Assembly (NCBI RefSeq): GCF_950295315.1
Contig: NC_080171.1
Span: 32,232,361 to 32,296,360, forward strand
Direction of reading: 5' to 3'
DNA length: 64,000 nucleotides
Source: Erinaceus europaeus
Taxonomy: Eukaryota > Chordata > Mammalia > Eulipotyphla > Erinaceidae
Shown: in pieces, positions 1,522-42,162 of the stretch
How positions within the stretch are numbered: the first letter of the stretch is position 1
How the letters are laid out: each line of letters opens with the position of its first letter
Translations under genes and position numbers: made by a program
The notes under the pieces: generated by a model
Database searches by the model: none
What the model was told of the DNA's origin: nothing
What the model saw: the letters and a program-made list of their open reading frames with translations, nothing else

Positions 1522-1722
1522 CTGTGGCTGAGTGGTGGTGCATTCAGTTGAGTGTGCATGTTACCATGCACAAGGACCCGGATTCAAGCCCCCATTCCTC
1601 ACCTGCATGAAAGGAAGCTTTATAAGTGGTGAAGGAGTACTGCAGGTGTCTCTTTATTGCCTCTTTCCCTCTTGATTTCTCTGTCTCTACCCAATAAATA
1701 TAGAAAACAAAATTTAAATGCA
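1522..1722 (+). repeat. SINE family B
   Basis: Head GTGGCTGAGTGGTGGTGCATT, B-box-like GGATTCAAGCCCC, then the AAGCTTTATAAGTGGTGAAG and TGCAGGTGTCTCT body and an AATAAATATAG tail. Confidence 0.85.
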
Positions 1723-2617
1723 GCACTCACAGAACTAAAATAGTAAATGTGAAACCCAGAATCAAAAATAAGATAAAAGGCTGGGAGATAAACCTAGATC
1801 TTCAAAGACCTGACATCACAAGCACATGAAAGGCATGCGTATCAAAGAACAGGTGTTTTTCTTGTGTGTGTTTGTATATATTTAGAGAGCTGCCCATTGA
1901 GCCATTAGAATGAAATAGCTAGCTTAGCTTGTTTTTATGATACACTAATTTGTTTTAACCTAGTTTAATCACTTAATGATGCAGTGTGCTTTTTACATGA
2001 ATTTGAAGGGCAGTTTTTCCATGGGCCTTGAGTTCAGATATAAATACCTCATATAACAGGGACAACAGATTTTAATCATAGGGTAATTAGAAGTCATTTG
2101 AATACTGTGAAGAAATTGCTGTAGGAAGCCAAACAGGCCACTGAGATTTTATAATAAGAAAGGTTAAAATGTTAGTATAAGAAGGAATTATCCAGAAAGG
2201 CAAGGGGATGGGAGTGGATTGGGTAGGAGGACATTTGGGTGGGAGTTGGAAGTACAGTCTAAGGGGCAACTATAGAAGGTAAAGAAGTTTGAAAGGTAAA
2301 TAAACAGGAAAGCAGGCATTGAAGATATTTTTGTAGGATTGTTCCTCCTTTGATATTTTTAGGAGTGTCTTTATTTTTGATGCTTAAGGGAATTTATATT
2401 TGGGTGAGATGCACAGGGACTGAGCCTAGCCACAACTGTGGTATCAGTGTCACCTGGGGAACCATAGGACTGTGGTGGAGGCTTCTACCTATAAAGCACC
2501 TGTCATATCAGGGGGCAGCCCTATGTCAAAGACTGGAGAAGCTCCTGAGATGTGACCAACCAGTACCAATGAGACACTGCACAGCAGTGAGCTCAAAGAG
2601 ATTAAAATAATGCTATT

Positions 2618-3193
2618 GAGGGCTGGATAGAGAGTTCTCTACGTAGGAGGGACATGCCATGCCACACACACAGTGTAGTTTCAAGCCCCAGAACCACCCA
2701 GGAGAGCCACAGTACTGGGGAAAGTCCTGCTGCTATCCTGTCTCTCCCTTTCTCTGCATCTTCTGCATGAACGAAAAAGTCTGCCCAGAGCCAAGAAATC
2801 TAGCTGCTGAATTTCTCATTTCAAAAATAAATATTATTATTTATCTATTATTGGATAGACAAAGAAATTGAAAGGGTGATGGAGATAGAGAGAGACAGAG
2901 AGACAACTGCAACCCTGTTTCACCGCTCGTGAAGCTTTCCCCTCACAGATGGGGACCAGGGGCTTGAACCTGGGTCCTTGCACACTGCAATGTGTGCACT
3001 TAACCAGGTGCACCACCACCTGGCCCCAATGTTTTCATTTTTCAGATTTGTTTTACTTTAGAGAAAGGGAGAGAGATAACACAAACAAGGACAGAACACT
3101 GCTCAGCTCTGGTTTATGTGGATTGAACCTGGGGCTTTGGAGCCTCAGGTAAGAAAGTCTTTTTGTGTAACTTTATGAGGTCTTCCCAGCCCA
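2618..3193. repeat. SINE cluster: C (+), B (-) inside C (-)
   Basis: 2618-2822 is a plus-strand C-like SINE. 2823-3027 is a minus-strand B SINE ending CCACCACCTGGCCCC. 3045-3193 is a minus-strand C SINE (CACTGCTCAGCTCTGGTTTA ... GGAGCCTCAGG). Confidence 0.75.
2823..3080. repeat. 258-bp near-identical repeat, copy 1
   Basis: Contains a minus-strand family B SINE (2823-3027) plus 53 bp of the neighbouring family C SINE (to GAGAGAGATAAC). The copy at 3618-3875 is the same over the full length with about two substitutions and no indel. This copy continues naturally into the rest of the family C SINE, so it is probably the source. Confidence 0.9.
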
Positions 3194-3407
3194 TGTTTTC
3201 ATCTGGTTCTCAGATTTTGGCATGTGAGCGCTGTATGATGGATGTGCTGGGCTGAGGTGAGCTGAAGAATAGAATAGAGATACTCAGTCTCTGAGCAGTG
3301 TGTGCACTCTATGAAAACTTCCCATTTCTTTTAAACTGTGAAGATGTGTGACTTTCCTTTGTCTACACTAACCTTTTAGCTACCTGTTACCTCTTGTTCC
3401 ATTCCAG

Positions 3408-3561
3408 AAGCAAGAAGGAGCCACCACCGGTTTCTCACAGTGGCTACTCCTCCCTGATGAGCTGTGGATTTGTATATTCTCCTTCCTGTCCCACAAGGAG
3501 CTGGCTTGGGTCGCACAGGTGTGCCACCACTTCCACCAGCTTGCATGTGACGGCAGCCTCT
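3408..3561 (+). CDS. FBXL-type gene, internal exon with F-box
   Basis: This exon encodes an F-box, the motif that docks a substrate receptor onto SKP1 in SCF ubiquitin ligases. A pyrimidine tract and CAG precede 3408, and the donor GTAAGC starts at 3562. Read from the first base, the frame is open for 51 codons plus one base. LPDELW lies at 3450-3467, followed by I-C-I-F-S-F-L-S-H-K-E-L and then VAQVCHHFHQLA, the two-helix pattern of an F-box. The last base T joins the GG that opens the exon at 28539 to make the Trp expected in the conserved SLW motif. The frame is open up to the acceptor, so the start codon lies in an upstream exon outside the window. The family is clear; the exact FBXL paralogue is not. 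Confidence 0.85.
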
Positions 3562-13506: not shown

Positions 13507-14859
13507 TCACTTTAAAAAAAAATTTTATTTAAGAAAGGATTAATGAACAAAAACATAAGGTAGGAGGGGTACAACTCCACACAATTCCCACCACCCAATC
13601 TCCATAACCCACCCCCTCCCATGATAGCTTTCCCATTCTCTATCCCTCTGGGAGCATGGACCCAGGGTCGTTAAGGGTTGCAGAAGGTAAAGGTCTGGCT
13701 TCTGTAATTGCTTCCCCATTGAACATGGGCATTGACTGGTCGGTCCATACTCCCAGTCTGCCTCTCTCTTTGCCTAGTAAGCTGTGTCTCTGGGGAAGCT
13801 GAGCTCCAGGACACATTAGTGGGGTCTTCAATCCAGGGAAGGCTGGCCAGCATCCTGGTGGCATCTGGAACCTGGTGATTGAAAAGAGAGTTAACATACG
13901 AAGCCAAACAATTTGTTGAGCAATCATGGATCCCAAGCTTGGAATAGTGGAGAGGAAGTGTTAGGGAGGTACTGACTGCAAATTCTAGTGTACTTCTGCT
14001 TTCAGGTATATATTTTGCAGTAGTTTATGGATACGTGTGAACATAAGCTCTCTCTCACAGAAACTGGTGTATATCTAGGTTATGGGACTTTGTTAGAAAG
14101 TGAACTACCTGAGATGAAATTAGAGTATACTATAAAAGGAAAGATCTCACCTGAGTAATGAAGCTGAAGGGTTGTCATTCCACACGTGAAGTCTCTGGAC
14201 ACAGTCTGAGGTGAAGCATGTTGAGGTGGCAATCATTGTGTTGGTTAGGTTGTGATCGGCGGATGCAATATTATTTGGTTTGGATTGGGAGACGCATAAG
14301 GGAAAGTGGGCCCTATCCAAGGGTTCCAGGACTGGGGGAAGTAGGGGCTCTATAGTGGAGATGTGAGGTTCCTGCTGTCTTAGGGTTCAAAAAGACAATC
14401 GATAGTTAATGTTATCATCACATTATTTGGTAATTGGGTTAACTTTGAAAAGTCCTTTTGTTATGGTTTTCTGTACAGTATCCAGTATCTTGTATATAGC
14501 TGTGCTATTGGATGCTTCTAATCTACTTGGTCTAGGCTTTTGAGAGAGTCCGCATATCAATTACACAGCCTATATATTAAAAAGATTCAGTTTGTGTTTT
14601 GAGAAACTTTGAGACATACAACTGATTTTCCCCCTCTCATATTAATTAACTAGTGATTTATATGTCTACATTTTACTAGGAGTGTACATAAACACCATTC
14701 TCACCACCAAAAGACTGTGACCCATCCCTCCCACCCACTCCCACCCCCCACTAGCCCAGGAAGCTGCATGTCTACCCCTCACTACAGGGTTTTTACTTTG
14801 GTGCCCTACTTACAATTTGATCAGGTCCTGCTTTTAGTTTCCCTTTCAGATCTTCTTAC

Positions 14860-15408
14860 TCAACTTCTGTTGATGAGTGGGATCATCCCATACTCATCTT
14901 TATCTTTCTGACTTAGTTCACTTAACATCATTCCTTCTAGCTCTGTCCAAGATGGGTCAGAGAAGGTGGGTTCATTGTTCTTGATAGCTGCATAGTATTC
15001 CATTGTGTATATATACCACAGCTTTCTCAGCCACTCATCTGGTGTTGGGCACCTGGGTAGCTTCCAGGTTATAGCTATTATGAATTGTGCTGCTATGAAC
15101 ATAGGAGTACACACCTCTTTTTGGTTGGGTGTTATGGAGTCCTTGGGGTATAAGCCCAGGAGAGGAATTACTGGATCATATGGAAGGTCCATGTCTAGCC
15201 TTCTGAGAGTTTTCCAGACTGCTCTCCACAGAGGCTGTACCAATTTACATTCCCACCAGCAATGTAAAAGGGTTCCTCTGTCCCCACAACCTCTCCAGCA
15301 TTTGTTGCTGCTGTCCTTTTTGATGTATGCCATTCTTACAGGGGTGAGGTGGTATCTTAGTGTTGTCTTAATTTGCATTTCTCTGACAATCAGTGACCTA
15401 GAGCAGTT
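14860..15408 (-). pseudogene. L1 ORF2 C-terminus, antisense part of the twin-primed copy
   Basis: Read on the minus strand this is the last ~180 codons of L1 ORF2. Landmarks are [16 protein letters not shown], the cysteine motif region [29 protein letters not shown], and [15 protein letters not shown] near the end, closing with a stop just before the 3' UTR. The zinc-knuckle-like Cys/His pattern (C-x3-C ... H-C-x3-C) is intact. It is a passenger fragment of the twin-primed L1 and is not a host gene. Confidence 0.85.
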
Positions 15409-16320
15409 AGAAACTGATACCAAGAAATGGAAAGATATCCCATGCTCATGGATTGGAAGAATAAATATCATCAAAATGAATATTCTCCCCAGAGCCATAT
15501 ACAAATTCAATGCAATACCCATCAAAGTTCCACCAAGCTTCTTTAAGAGAATAGAACAAACACTACAATCATTTATCTGAAACCTGAAAACACCTAGAAT
15601 TGCCAAAACCATCTTGAGGAAAAGAAACAGAAATGGAGGCATCACACTCCCAGACCTTAAACTATATTATAAAGCCAGCATCATCAAAACAGTATGGTAC
15701 TGGAACAAAAATAGGCACACAAACCAGTGGAACAGAATTGAAAGCCCAGAAGTAAATCCCAACACCTATGGGCATCTAATCTTTGATAAGGGGGCCCAAA
15801 GGATTAAATGGAAAAAGGAGGCTCTCTTCAATAAATGGTGCTGGGAAAACTGGGTTGAAACATGCAGAAGAATGAAATTGAACCACTTTATCTCACCAGA
15901 AACAAAAATCAACTCCAAATGGATCAAAGACCTAGATGTCAGACCAGAAACAGTCAAATACTTAGAGGAAAACATTGGTAAAACACTTTCCCACCTACAC
16001 CTCAAGGACATCTTTGATGAATCAAACCCAATTGCAAGGAAGACTAAAGCAGAAACAAACCAATGGGACTACATCAAATTGAAAAGCTTCTGCACATCCA
16101 AAGAAACTATTAAACAAACAGAGAGACCCCTCACAGAATGGGAGAAGATCTTCACATGCCCGACATCAGGCAAGAAACTAATCACCAAAATATATAAAGA
16201 GCTCAGCAAACTTAGCACCAAAAAAGCATATGACCCCATCCAAAAATGGGCAGAGGATATGAACAAAACATTCACCTCAGAGGAGATCCAAAAGGCTAAC
16301 AAACATATGAAAAACTGCTC
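15409..16320 (+). pseudogene. L1 ORF2 segment, inverted part of the twin-primed copy
   Basis: About 300 codons of L1 ORF2 downstream of the reverse transcriptase, in sense orientation. Landmarks are [51 protein letters not shown] and [15 protein letters not shown] near 15579 replaces the Trp expected in the IWN-type motif. The segment joins end to end with the antisense ORF2 part on its left. Confidence 0.85.
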
Positions 16321-16454
16321 TAGTCACATTTTTTTAAACCTCAGCATCTTTTTAAGAATATGTACCTTTCTATTAACTCATTTTTTTAATGTTCTTTCTT
16401 TTTATCCTGTAAGTCAAATGATTTTCTTAATATATTTAAAATGTAAGTTTTGGT

Positions 16455-16925
16455 AGCTTGGAAGATAGCACAGTAGCCAGACTTAGAATGAAAAGGGTGA
16501 GGTCTTTGGTTCAGCCCCTGGCATTACATATGCTAGAGTGATATACTCAGACTCTCCCTCTTTCTCTCTTTTTCTTGTTAAAAAATAGGAAATAAGCCCT
16601 GTTTTCTATTTATTGTGTGTGGAAAATTGGTTTTGAAAAGTTATTTATGGAGAAAACTCAAGGCCTAAGATGGTTTTCCATTTCTCTAGCAGGTGATTTT
16701 ATGTGATTCTGCTCTCCCTTTGGAGAATTATTAATTTCAGTAGCCACCTTATCTAATTTTAGTGTTAAAGATTTTCCTAGCTCAGGGGTAGATAGCATAA
16801 TGGTTATGCAAACAGACTCTCATGCCTGAGGCTCCAAAGTTTCAGGTTTAATCCCCTGCACCACCATAAACCAGAGCTGATCAGTGCTCTGGTAAAAACA
16901 AACAAACAAACAAACAAAAACCTAG
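16455..16925 (+). repeat. Two plus-strand SINE C copies
   Basis: 16455-16588 (GGAAGATAGCACAGTAGCC ... CTAGAGTGATATACTC) and 16786-16925 (GTAGATAGCATAATGGTTATG ... GATCAGTGCTCTGGT, (AAAC)n tail). Confidence 0.8.
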
Positions 16926-22309: not shown

Positions 22310-22716
22310 TTTTCCTCCTCCAATGTTGTTGCTAGGGCTCAGTGTCTACACTACACATCACGACTTCTGGTGGCCATTTTTTCCTTTAAAAAGTTCCAGA
22401 TGCCATCCAGGTTCCAGATGCCATCTAGGTTCCAGATGCCATCAGGATGCCGGCCAGCCTTCCCTGGATTGAAGACCCCACCAATGTGTCCTGGAGCTCA
22501 GCTTCCCCAGAGACACAGCTTACTAGGGAAAGAGAGAGGCAGACTGGGAGTATGGACCGACCAGTCAACGCCCATGTTCAGCGTGGAAGCAATTACAGAA
22601 GCCAGACCTTCTACCTTCTGCAACCCTCAATGACCCAGGGGGCCAGGGGCTTAATTCCATGTCCTTGCTTATGGCAACTTACACTCTCAACTGAGTGTGC
22701 CACTACCAGGCCCTGT
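22310..22716 (-). repeat. SINE family B interrupted by an L1 piece
   Basis: 22310-22389 (GGGCTCAGTGTCTACACTAC module) and 22633-22716 (CCAGGGGCTTAATTCCATGT ... GCCACTACCAGGCCC) flank the sense L1 fragment. Confidence 0.7.
22390..22632 (+). mobile_element. L1 3' UTR piece in sense, inside a SINE
   Basis: Sense copy of the L1 UTR segment (CCTGGATTGAAGACCCCACC through CTTCTGCAACCC). It lies between two parts of a minus-strand family B SINE (22310-22389 and 22633-22716). Its left end carries an 18-bp unit three times (TTCCAGATGCCATC-AGG, 22395-22446). Confidence 0.75.
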
Positions 22717-39570: not shown

Positions 39571-39954
39571 ATATGTTGCTTTACTAATAAGAAAAGTAGG
39601 TTTTAGAAAAAGTCTGTGAGTCTCAATCTGTGAATCACAGACTTGTTACAATAAGTTTTAATTTATTTTTGTACTATTCTTGCTTTTTTTTAAATTTTAA
39701 TTTATTTTAAAAAAGGAGACATTAACAAAACCATAGGATAGGAGGGGTACAACTCCACACAATTCCCACCACCAGATCTCTGTATTCCATCCCCTCCCCT
39801 GATAGCTTTCCTATTCTTTAACCCTCTGGGAGTATGGACCCAAGGTCATTATGGGATGCAGAAGGTGGAAGGTCTGGCTTCCGTAATTGCTTTCCCACTG
39901 AACATGGACCTTGACAGGTCAATCCATACTCCCAGTCTGCCTCTCTCTTTCCCT

Positions 39955-40045
39955 TCTTCTTCTTCTTCTTCTTCTTCTTCTTCTTCTTCTTCTTCTTCTT
40001 CTTCTTCTTCTTCTTCTTCTTCTTCTTCTTCTTCTTCTTCTTCTT
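39955..40045. repeat. (TTC)n microsatellite, 3' tail of the LINE
   Basis: About 30 uninterrupted TTC units on the + strand. Because it starts right after the LINE stop codon on the minus strand and ends at the target duplication, it is best read as the element's (GAA)n tail rather than an independent microsatellite. Confidence 0.9.
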
Positions 40046-40583
40046 CTAGCGTTTGCCCTTCTTCCGTAGCCAGTTAACAGCGTCAGGTTGAGCCTGATGT
40101 AAAGTTCTGAGACCTCCTTTGAATCTGGAGAGGGGGCAGTCATTGACTGTCATAGTCTGTCTGTAGCCGCAGGGGCAGTTCGGGTTGCCTCTGGCTCCCC
40201 AGCGATGGAACATAGCGGCGCACCGGCCATGGCCTGTTCGATAGCAATTGAGGAGGGCCCAATCATAATGTGCTAGGTCAAAGCCGGGTTGACGCTTGCA
40301 GGGGTCTGTGATGAGGTGTTTGTTCTTTACCTCAGCTGACTGCCAACTCTGTTTCCAAGAGTCTGGAACAGAAAAGTTCAGTGTAGGCGTAGTAGACCAG
40401 ATTGGATGACGAGACGTCAAGTGTTGGGCAGGGTGGGCGAAGATATCCACATATATTCGCAGGTCTGGTCGAGCGTAGACGTGAACTTCGATGATGCCGC
40501 ATCCCGATGAATATCTGGCGGGGCGATGTTGCTAAGAACTGGCAGCCATGGAACCGGGGTGGAATGGATGGTTCCAGAAATTA
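40046..40583 (-). pseudogene. C-terminal part of a non-L1 LINE ORF2-like protein
   Basis: Two overlapping minus-strand frames carry one protein end, separated by a frameshift between about 40420 and 40490. The upstream frame shows WLPVLSNIAPPDI. The downstream frame shows DIFAHP, SRHPIW, PGFDLAHYDWALLNCYRTGHGRC, then HRWGARGNPNCPCG and DCPL, ending at TAG 40046-40048. The order I recall from arthropod-type LINE ORFs is IAPP, RRPIW, LNRFRTG-GRC, HKWG, CDCG, M-HIV-DCP. Here the Cys pair is kept, but the His usually found before the last Cys seems lost. Clade unresolved (RTE, Jockey or CR1-like are possible); it is not L1. No reverse transcriptase domain remains. Confidence 0.72.
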
Positions 40584-40991
40584 TCTCTTTCCCTAGTAGG
40601 GTGGGTCTCTGGGGAAGTGGAGCTCCAGGACACATTGGTGGGGTCGTCTGTCCAAGGAAGTTGGGTCAGCACCATGCTGGCATCTGGAACCTGGTGGCTG
40701 AAAAGAGTTAACATACAAAGCCAAACAAATTGTTGAACAATTATAAACCTAAAGGCTGGAATAGTGCAGATGAGGTGTTGTGGGATACTCACTGCAGACT
40801 ATTGTGTACTTTTGCGTTCAGGTATATATTTTGCCCTAGTTTATGGATACGTGTGAACATATGCTCTATCTCATGGAACGTGGTCTATATCTAGGTTTTG
40901 GGACTTTGTTAGGAAGTGAACCACCTGGGATGGAATTAGAGAATACTATGAAAGGAAAGGTCTCACCTGAGTAATGAAGCTGAAGAGTTGT

Positions 40992-41468
40992 TGTCGGGCT
41001 GTGCCACGGAGAATAGAGAGAGGAGGTCTGGAGCGAAGAGGGAACACAAATCTTTATTTGCGCTGGCACCTCAGAGTTGGGTGCGAGAGAAGCAGGTTGG
41101 GCCACCTGGAGGTAGCAAAACTGGCCGCCTCACGCAGTAACCTTTCCTGCGTCTAAACACCGAAGTGAAGCACTGGCAAGAGAGAGAGAGGTGCGGAAGG
41201 AGAAAGGCTTTTATAGGAGTAGCTTTCATGAGAATGGGAAGAGGGAGGAGTAACCACAGCACTCCAGGGTAGGATAACAACTCTCGTGAGAATGGGAAGG
41301 GGGAGGAGCAACCAGAGCACCCGCAACCATTGCCAGGGAATAGACAGTGCCCTGAGGGCACAACATGGCGGAACAGGCACTCCAAGAATGTCCCAACTCT
41401 CGCGGGAACTAGCAATAGCCTGAGGGGACAACATGGCAGATGTGACTGCGTCTGCACAACTTCCCAGC
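40992..41468 (-). mobile_element. Solo LTR, tRNA-Lys-type ERV family
   Basis: This ~475-bp block interrupts the L1 3' UTR; the related L1 near 14.17 kb runs straight through this point. Read on the minus strand it has a TATA box (ATAAAAG, complement near 41206-41216) and an AATAAA signal (complement at 41053-41058), ending CAGCCCGACA. The + strand begins TGTCGGG. Imperfect 7-nt flanks GAGTTGT/GGGTTGT (40985-40991, 41469-41475) may be the target duplication. U3 has a tandem ~60-bp repeat (about 41217-41270 and 41273-41325) around GAGAATGGGAAG. It resembles the LTR at 59665-60166. Confidence 0.75.
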
Positions 41469-42067
41469 GGGTTGTCATTCCACACCTGAAGTCTCTGGAC
41501 ACAGTCTGAAGTGAAGCATGCTGAGGTGGCACTCGTTGCATTGATCAGGTTGGGATCGGCGGATGCAATATTATTTGATATGAATTGAGAGAAGCATGCA
41601 GGAAAGTGGGCCCCACCCCAATGTTCCAGGACTGGGGGAAATATAGGCTCTATAGTGGAAATGTGAGGTTCCTGTTGTCTTTGTGTTCAAGAAGACAATA
41701 GATAGTTATTGTTATCATTACATTAATTGGTAATTGGGTTATCTTTGAAAAATCCCTTTGTTAGGATTTGCTGTATAATACCCAACACCTTGTATATAGC
41801 TGTGCTACCAGTTGCTTCTGTTCTCCCTGGTCTAGGCTTTTGAGAGAGTCAACATATCAAAGACTCAGCCTATGTATTAAAAATATTCAGTCTGTGCTTC
41901 AAAAAGTTTGAGACATACTATCAATTTTTCCACTCTCATATTAATTAAATAGTGATTTATATGACTACAAATTAATAGGAGTATACATAAACACCATTCC
42001 CACCACCAAAAGACTGTGTCCCATCCCACCCGCCCCCACCCCCGCTGCCCTGGGAAGCTGAATGTCC

Positions 42068-42162
42068 ACCCTTACCCTTACCCTTACCCTTACCCTTACC
42101 CTTACCCTTACCCTTACCTTTACCCTTACCCTTACCCTTACCCTTACCCTTACCCTTACCCT
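42068..42162. repeat. (CCCTTA)n hexanucleotide array
   Basis: About 16 tandem CCCTTA units with one variant unit near 42118. The complement is TAAGGG, which is not a rotation of the TTAGGG telomere repeat. It sits where the related L1 copy near 14.77 kb has a short CCACCCCTCACTACAGGG stretch, so it looks like an expansion inside the L1 3' UTR. Confidence 0.9.

Follow-up and report, generated by a model that had tools for sequence, protein, structure and literature searches.

Vingi reportedly forms a sister clade of Ingi and has no RNase H. Two hedgehog genomes are said to contain it and 33 other mammals to lack it, a finding for which horizontal transfer was reportedly suggested with vertical descent not excluded. 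The RTE, Jockey, CR1 and L2 clades differ from Vingi in their C-terminus and in their relatives. BovB and other RTE LINEs are non-L1 elements with a short-unit tail and suspected horizontal spread. Hedgehog Vingi has been in print since 2011 (Kojima, Kapitonov and Jurka, Mol Biol Evol 28:17-20), a paper cited for it in passages of PMC5753468 and PMC3183009. The second of these gives, in the passage concerned, 311 copies of Vingi-1N3_EE less than 1% diverged in Erinaceus europaeus, and an excerpt of PMC3391268 names Vingi as a new clade that is also present in a locust transcriptome.

The feature described here lies in a 64-kb stretch of hedgehog DNA (the window, meaning the whole stretch analysed). 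It is very probably a 5'-truncated hedgehog Vingi LINE of the Vingi-1_EE type that entered an older L1 3' UTR by target-primed reverse transcription; the assignment to Vingi draws on the hedgehog literature and on an endonuclease and reverse transcriptase without RNase H, Vingi-1_EE being compared by description only. The element itself is almost certainly a known one.

Structure of the insertion and of its host L1

The coordinates of the insertion and its surroundings are collected in Table 1. The flanking duplication is exact over 11 nt, and on the + strand of the window this sequence occurs only at these two places; its reverse complement lies at 22525 and 26041. The stop codon abuts a pure array, for which TRF gives 39953-40047, with 31.7 GAA/TTC units and 100% purity, a span that includes stop-codon and duplication bases. 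Each of these features, the 11-nt duplications, the truncated LINE-type ORF end and the stop codon running straight into (GAA)n, is present as the initial annotation had read it from the letters. Only one copy of the element occurs in the window, and in this copy the 3' end of the LINE ORF is split over two frames: comparison with 20 other copies reveals two deletions, one of 7 nt near 40484 that causes a frameshift and one of 6 nt near 40148 that costs two residues.

Table 1. Features of the Vingi-type insertion and its host in the window
Feature	Position	Strand	Basis or sequence
Target-site duplication, 3' (tail) side of Vingi-type copy	39944..39954	.	TCTCTTTCCCT
(GAA)n tail, ~30 units, pure	39955..40045	-	Sequence reading and TRF
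TAG stop codon of LINE ORF, tail directly after	40046..40048	-	Sequence reading, ORF translation
Last 535 bp of Vingi-type LINE ORF, 5'-truncated	40049..40583	-	ORF translations, comparison with 20 copies
Target-site duplication, 5' (truncation) side of Vingi-type copy	40584..40594	.	TCTCTTTCCCT
Host L1 3' UTR, interrupted by Vingi-type insertion and by a separate insert (~40992-41470)	39690..42071	-	BLAST, flank alignment, sister copy

The flanks are identified as L1 3' UTR because a sister copy of this sequence (13521-14777) sits behind the C-terminus of an L1 ORF2, starting ~85 nt downstream of it (minus strand, 14863-15666); 181 residues encoded there match human L1 ORF2p (PDB) with an E value of 4.6e-75. 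When joined, the flanks align without interruption to every paralogous L1 copy of the window that extends to the insertion site (five of five), which upholds the earlier proposal of an insertion into an L1 UTR. The insertion has the same orientation as its host. Target-site duplication, 5' truncation, 3' tail and an empty-site counterpart, the features by which target-primed reverse transcription of a LINE is recognised, are all found at this locus. BLAST identity to other copies within the window is 72.5-88.6% for the left flank and 73.5-84.4% for the right, as against the 4.09% divergence of the insert; the L1 family of the flank is therefore older than the Vingi insert.

It is proposed that the Vingi endonuclease would have nicked the + strand after the sequence ending in TCTCTTTCCCT, and that the freed 3' end would have annealed to the (GAA)n tail of the Vingi RNA and served as the primer for cDNA synthesis, which would have halted after ~535 bp plus the tail. 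Nicking of the second strand at a distance of 11 nt would have given rise to the target-site duplication. Afterwards the copy would have gained two small deletions and ~4% substitutions, and microsatellite expansion may have lengthened its GAA tail from a few units to ~30.

Several neighbouring sequences deserve mention in their own right. The second insert in the host 3' UTR (~480 bp) has a 5-nt direct repeat, GTTGT, on either side, and its minus strand carries an AATAAA signal; near 14169-14175 the sister L1 is without this insert. It may be a solo LTR, although its outer end (minus strand) has no initial TG. At the far end of the host 3' UTR segment lies an (ACCCTT)n array of 15.8 units (42068-42162), presumably one base per unit off the vertebrate telomere repeat. 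The L1 copy at 13521-16456 has its ORF2 C-terminus and 3' UTR on the minus strand, and the adjoining sequence from ~15440 presumably reads as + strand L1 ORF2, an arrangement like that left by twin priming.

Copies in the hedgehog assembly and their ages

The genome search covered the hedgehog assembly to which the window belongs (2.72 Gb, 1,172 contigs). A 536-bp query returned 5,571 first-look candidates, which are unverified copies, so that candidate totals here and below are not copy numbers; all 40 scored places match, the window copy itself at 100% and the 39 others at 93-94%. With a 2.8-kb query taken from a long copy there are 6,092 first-look candidates, and the 40 scored places (self included) all match at 96-100%, starting at position 1 and ending at 2797-2801. 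The family thus has many copies in the assembly, young ones among them. A scan of the assembly with PF14529 gave 150 scored matches among 21,896 candidates, clades taken together.

These counts bear on contamination or an assembly chimera, the explanation that the initial annotation reserved for an element with no other copies in the genome. The single copy in the 64-kb window would agree with it. However, all 40 scored places match in the element's own assembly, 39 of them elsewhere and on many large contigs, so that the element is not to be regarded as contamination; the insert moreover bears a target-site duplication within L1 sequence. A contaminant or chimeric origin of this kind is vanishingly improbable.

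Twenty of the 39 non-self matches (rows 2-21) were read with long flanks. All of them end in TAG followed by 1.7-4 GAA units, the layout seen in the window copy, and their 5' ends vary, the shortest copy starting ~0.55 kb and the longest at least 3.0 kb ahead of the stop codon. Exact target-site duplications of 11-12 nt are present in six copies. A simple search found no exact duplication of at least 11 nt in the other 14, four of which have 7-9 nt, six 5-6 nt (near chance) and four none; among the 20, the 5' end of L019 is not evaluable and L010 is interrupted. The latter, at oriented coordinates 1650-3530, is a Vingi copy broken by ~0.78 kb that opens with the 3' end of a Vingi element in inverted orientation and is probably a second insertion nested in the first. 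On its 5' side L010 is flanked by the L1 3' UTR segment that also hosts the window copy.

The tail of ~30 pure units in the window copy compares with the 1.7-4 units of all the other copies read: the expansion is specific to the window copy, where a LINE tail has become a microsatellite. The GAA tail that had been attributed to the family is present on its copies, whereas the long tract is no family trait.

In their last 550 bp, the 20 copies diverge from their own majority by 0.73-3.09%, five of them by less than 1%, an age profile that is biased since these copies were the ones most similar to the window copy. The window copy differs from the 20-copy majority at 4.09% of 538 positions, in addition to its two deletions. 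This divergence suggests that it is an older member of a family that was active after it arose, and it agrees with the earlier view that the family was active after the host L1 copy arose, and hence recently.

Clade assignment and protein relatives

The two ORF fragments of the window have no Pfam match. Searched against proteins, the 124-aa one yields a single match, at 52% identity; the classification was therefore made via longer genomic copies. L019 contains an 859-aa open frame with RVT_1 (2.8e-29) and part of Exo_endo_phos_2 (1.1e-8), and L010 a 309-aa frame with the N-terminal part of the endonuclease (Exo_endo_phos_2, Exo_endo_phos). The APE-type endonuclease and reverse transcriptase characteristic of Vingi are thus found in these frames. 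No RNase H match appears in either of the two at E <= 0.01, and PF00075 is present in none of 120 listed relatives (precomputed domains) and in none of five relatives scanned. The description of the element, nested in L1, as a non-L1 LINE is borne out.

The first guess as to its clade was Nimb, an I-related clade, which was dropped once the hedgehog Vingi reference was found among the references of PMC5753468.

The Pfam models matched, for the endonuclease and the reverse transcriptase, do not discriminate between Vingi and other RNase H-less clades, and the element could in principle be a non-L1 LINE of RTE, Jockey, CR1 or L2 type. Nevertheless, the passages of the literature searched name no non-L1 LINE other than Vingi as having expanded recently in hedgehogs, which makes such an affiliation very unlikely. 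The parallel with RTE and BovB drawn by the initial annotation fares accordingly: the hedgehog literature and the absent RNase H fit the Ingi-related Vingi, and RTE is disfavoured, short of formal exclusion.

A protein search with the L019 frame scored 7,984 candidates and gave 783 matches, of which 120 were listed. The closest of those listed, P0002 (582 aa; contig of 2,072 bases), matches the frame at 96% identity along 563 residues, or 66% of the query, and the next 21 show 55-58% identity over 98-99% of it. Apart from P0002, the listed relatives reach 60% identity at most, in a match that covers 64% of the query. The named organisms among the 120 are a pseudoscorpion (Cordylochernes), an aphid (Uroleucon), a sand fly (Phlebotomus) and an ascidian (Phallusia), at 41-45%; since they are mostly arthropods, the remembered likeness to arthropod-type LINE ORFs was a fair one. 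The viral contigs and prokaryote genome contigs searched contain no relative. If P0002 came from a non-hedgehog organism, for example a parasite, it would be the mark of a very recent transfer. Such a source is highly improbable, and P0002 is far more likely to be hedgehog DNA.

Origin of the family and comparison with known elements

The idea of horizontal transfer of hedgehog Vingi is already published: a passage of PMC3183009, citing Kojima et al. 2011, lists it among older 'likely horizontal transfers in mammals'. The alternative, an ancient Vingi lineage of mammals that persisted by vertical descent, is kept alive by human Vingi fossils, X12_LINE being listed as human Vingi in an excerpt of PMC5753468 and one pre-amniote Vingi protein fossil being recorded in human in an excerpt of PMC9004415. 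In view of the judgement of likely horizontal transfer quoted above, vertical persistence seems unlikely, although it deserves serious attention. No donor is visible among the 119 relatives listed besides P0002 (120 of 783 matches listed), none of which exceeds 60% identity.

The observation made in the initial annotation is confirmed and its interpretation partly supported: an unaided reading of raw sequence found a mammalian LINE family that is real and unusual, though already in print. For hedgehog genomics, the locus provides a worked example of a Vingi insertion in L1 whose short tail became a long GAA/TTC microsatellite.

Among eulipotyphlan elements, RTE1_Sar of the common shrew is a suspected horizontally acquired LINE of the RTE clade, with no significant matches, according to a passage of the source, in reads of European hedgehog, solenodon and star-nosed mole (PMC6542046). 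The window family is likewise a suspected horizontally acquired eulipotyphlan LINE, RTE1_Sar being assigned, in that passage, to RTE. BovB and other RTE elements share with the window family their non-L1 nature, a short-unit tail and a suspected horizontal spread, and on the literature match they probably belong to another clade. Without an RNase H match, the window family presumably agrees with the definition of the Vingi-1_EE family as a group without RNase H. Vingi-1_EE with its derivatives, such as Vingi-1N3_EE, and the family of the window are both non-L1 LINEs, with what is probably a recent multicopy expansion in a hedgehog-type genome.
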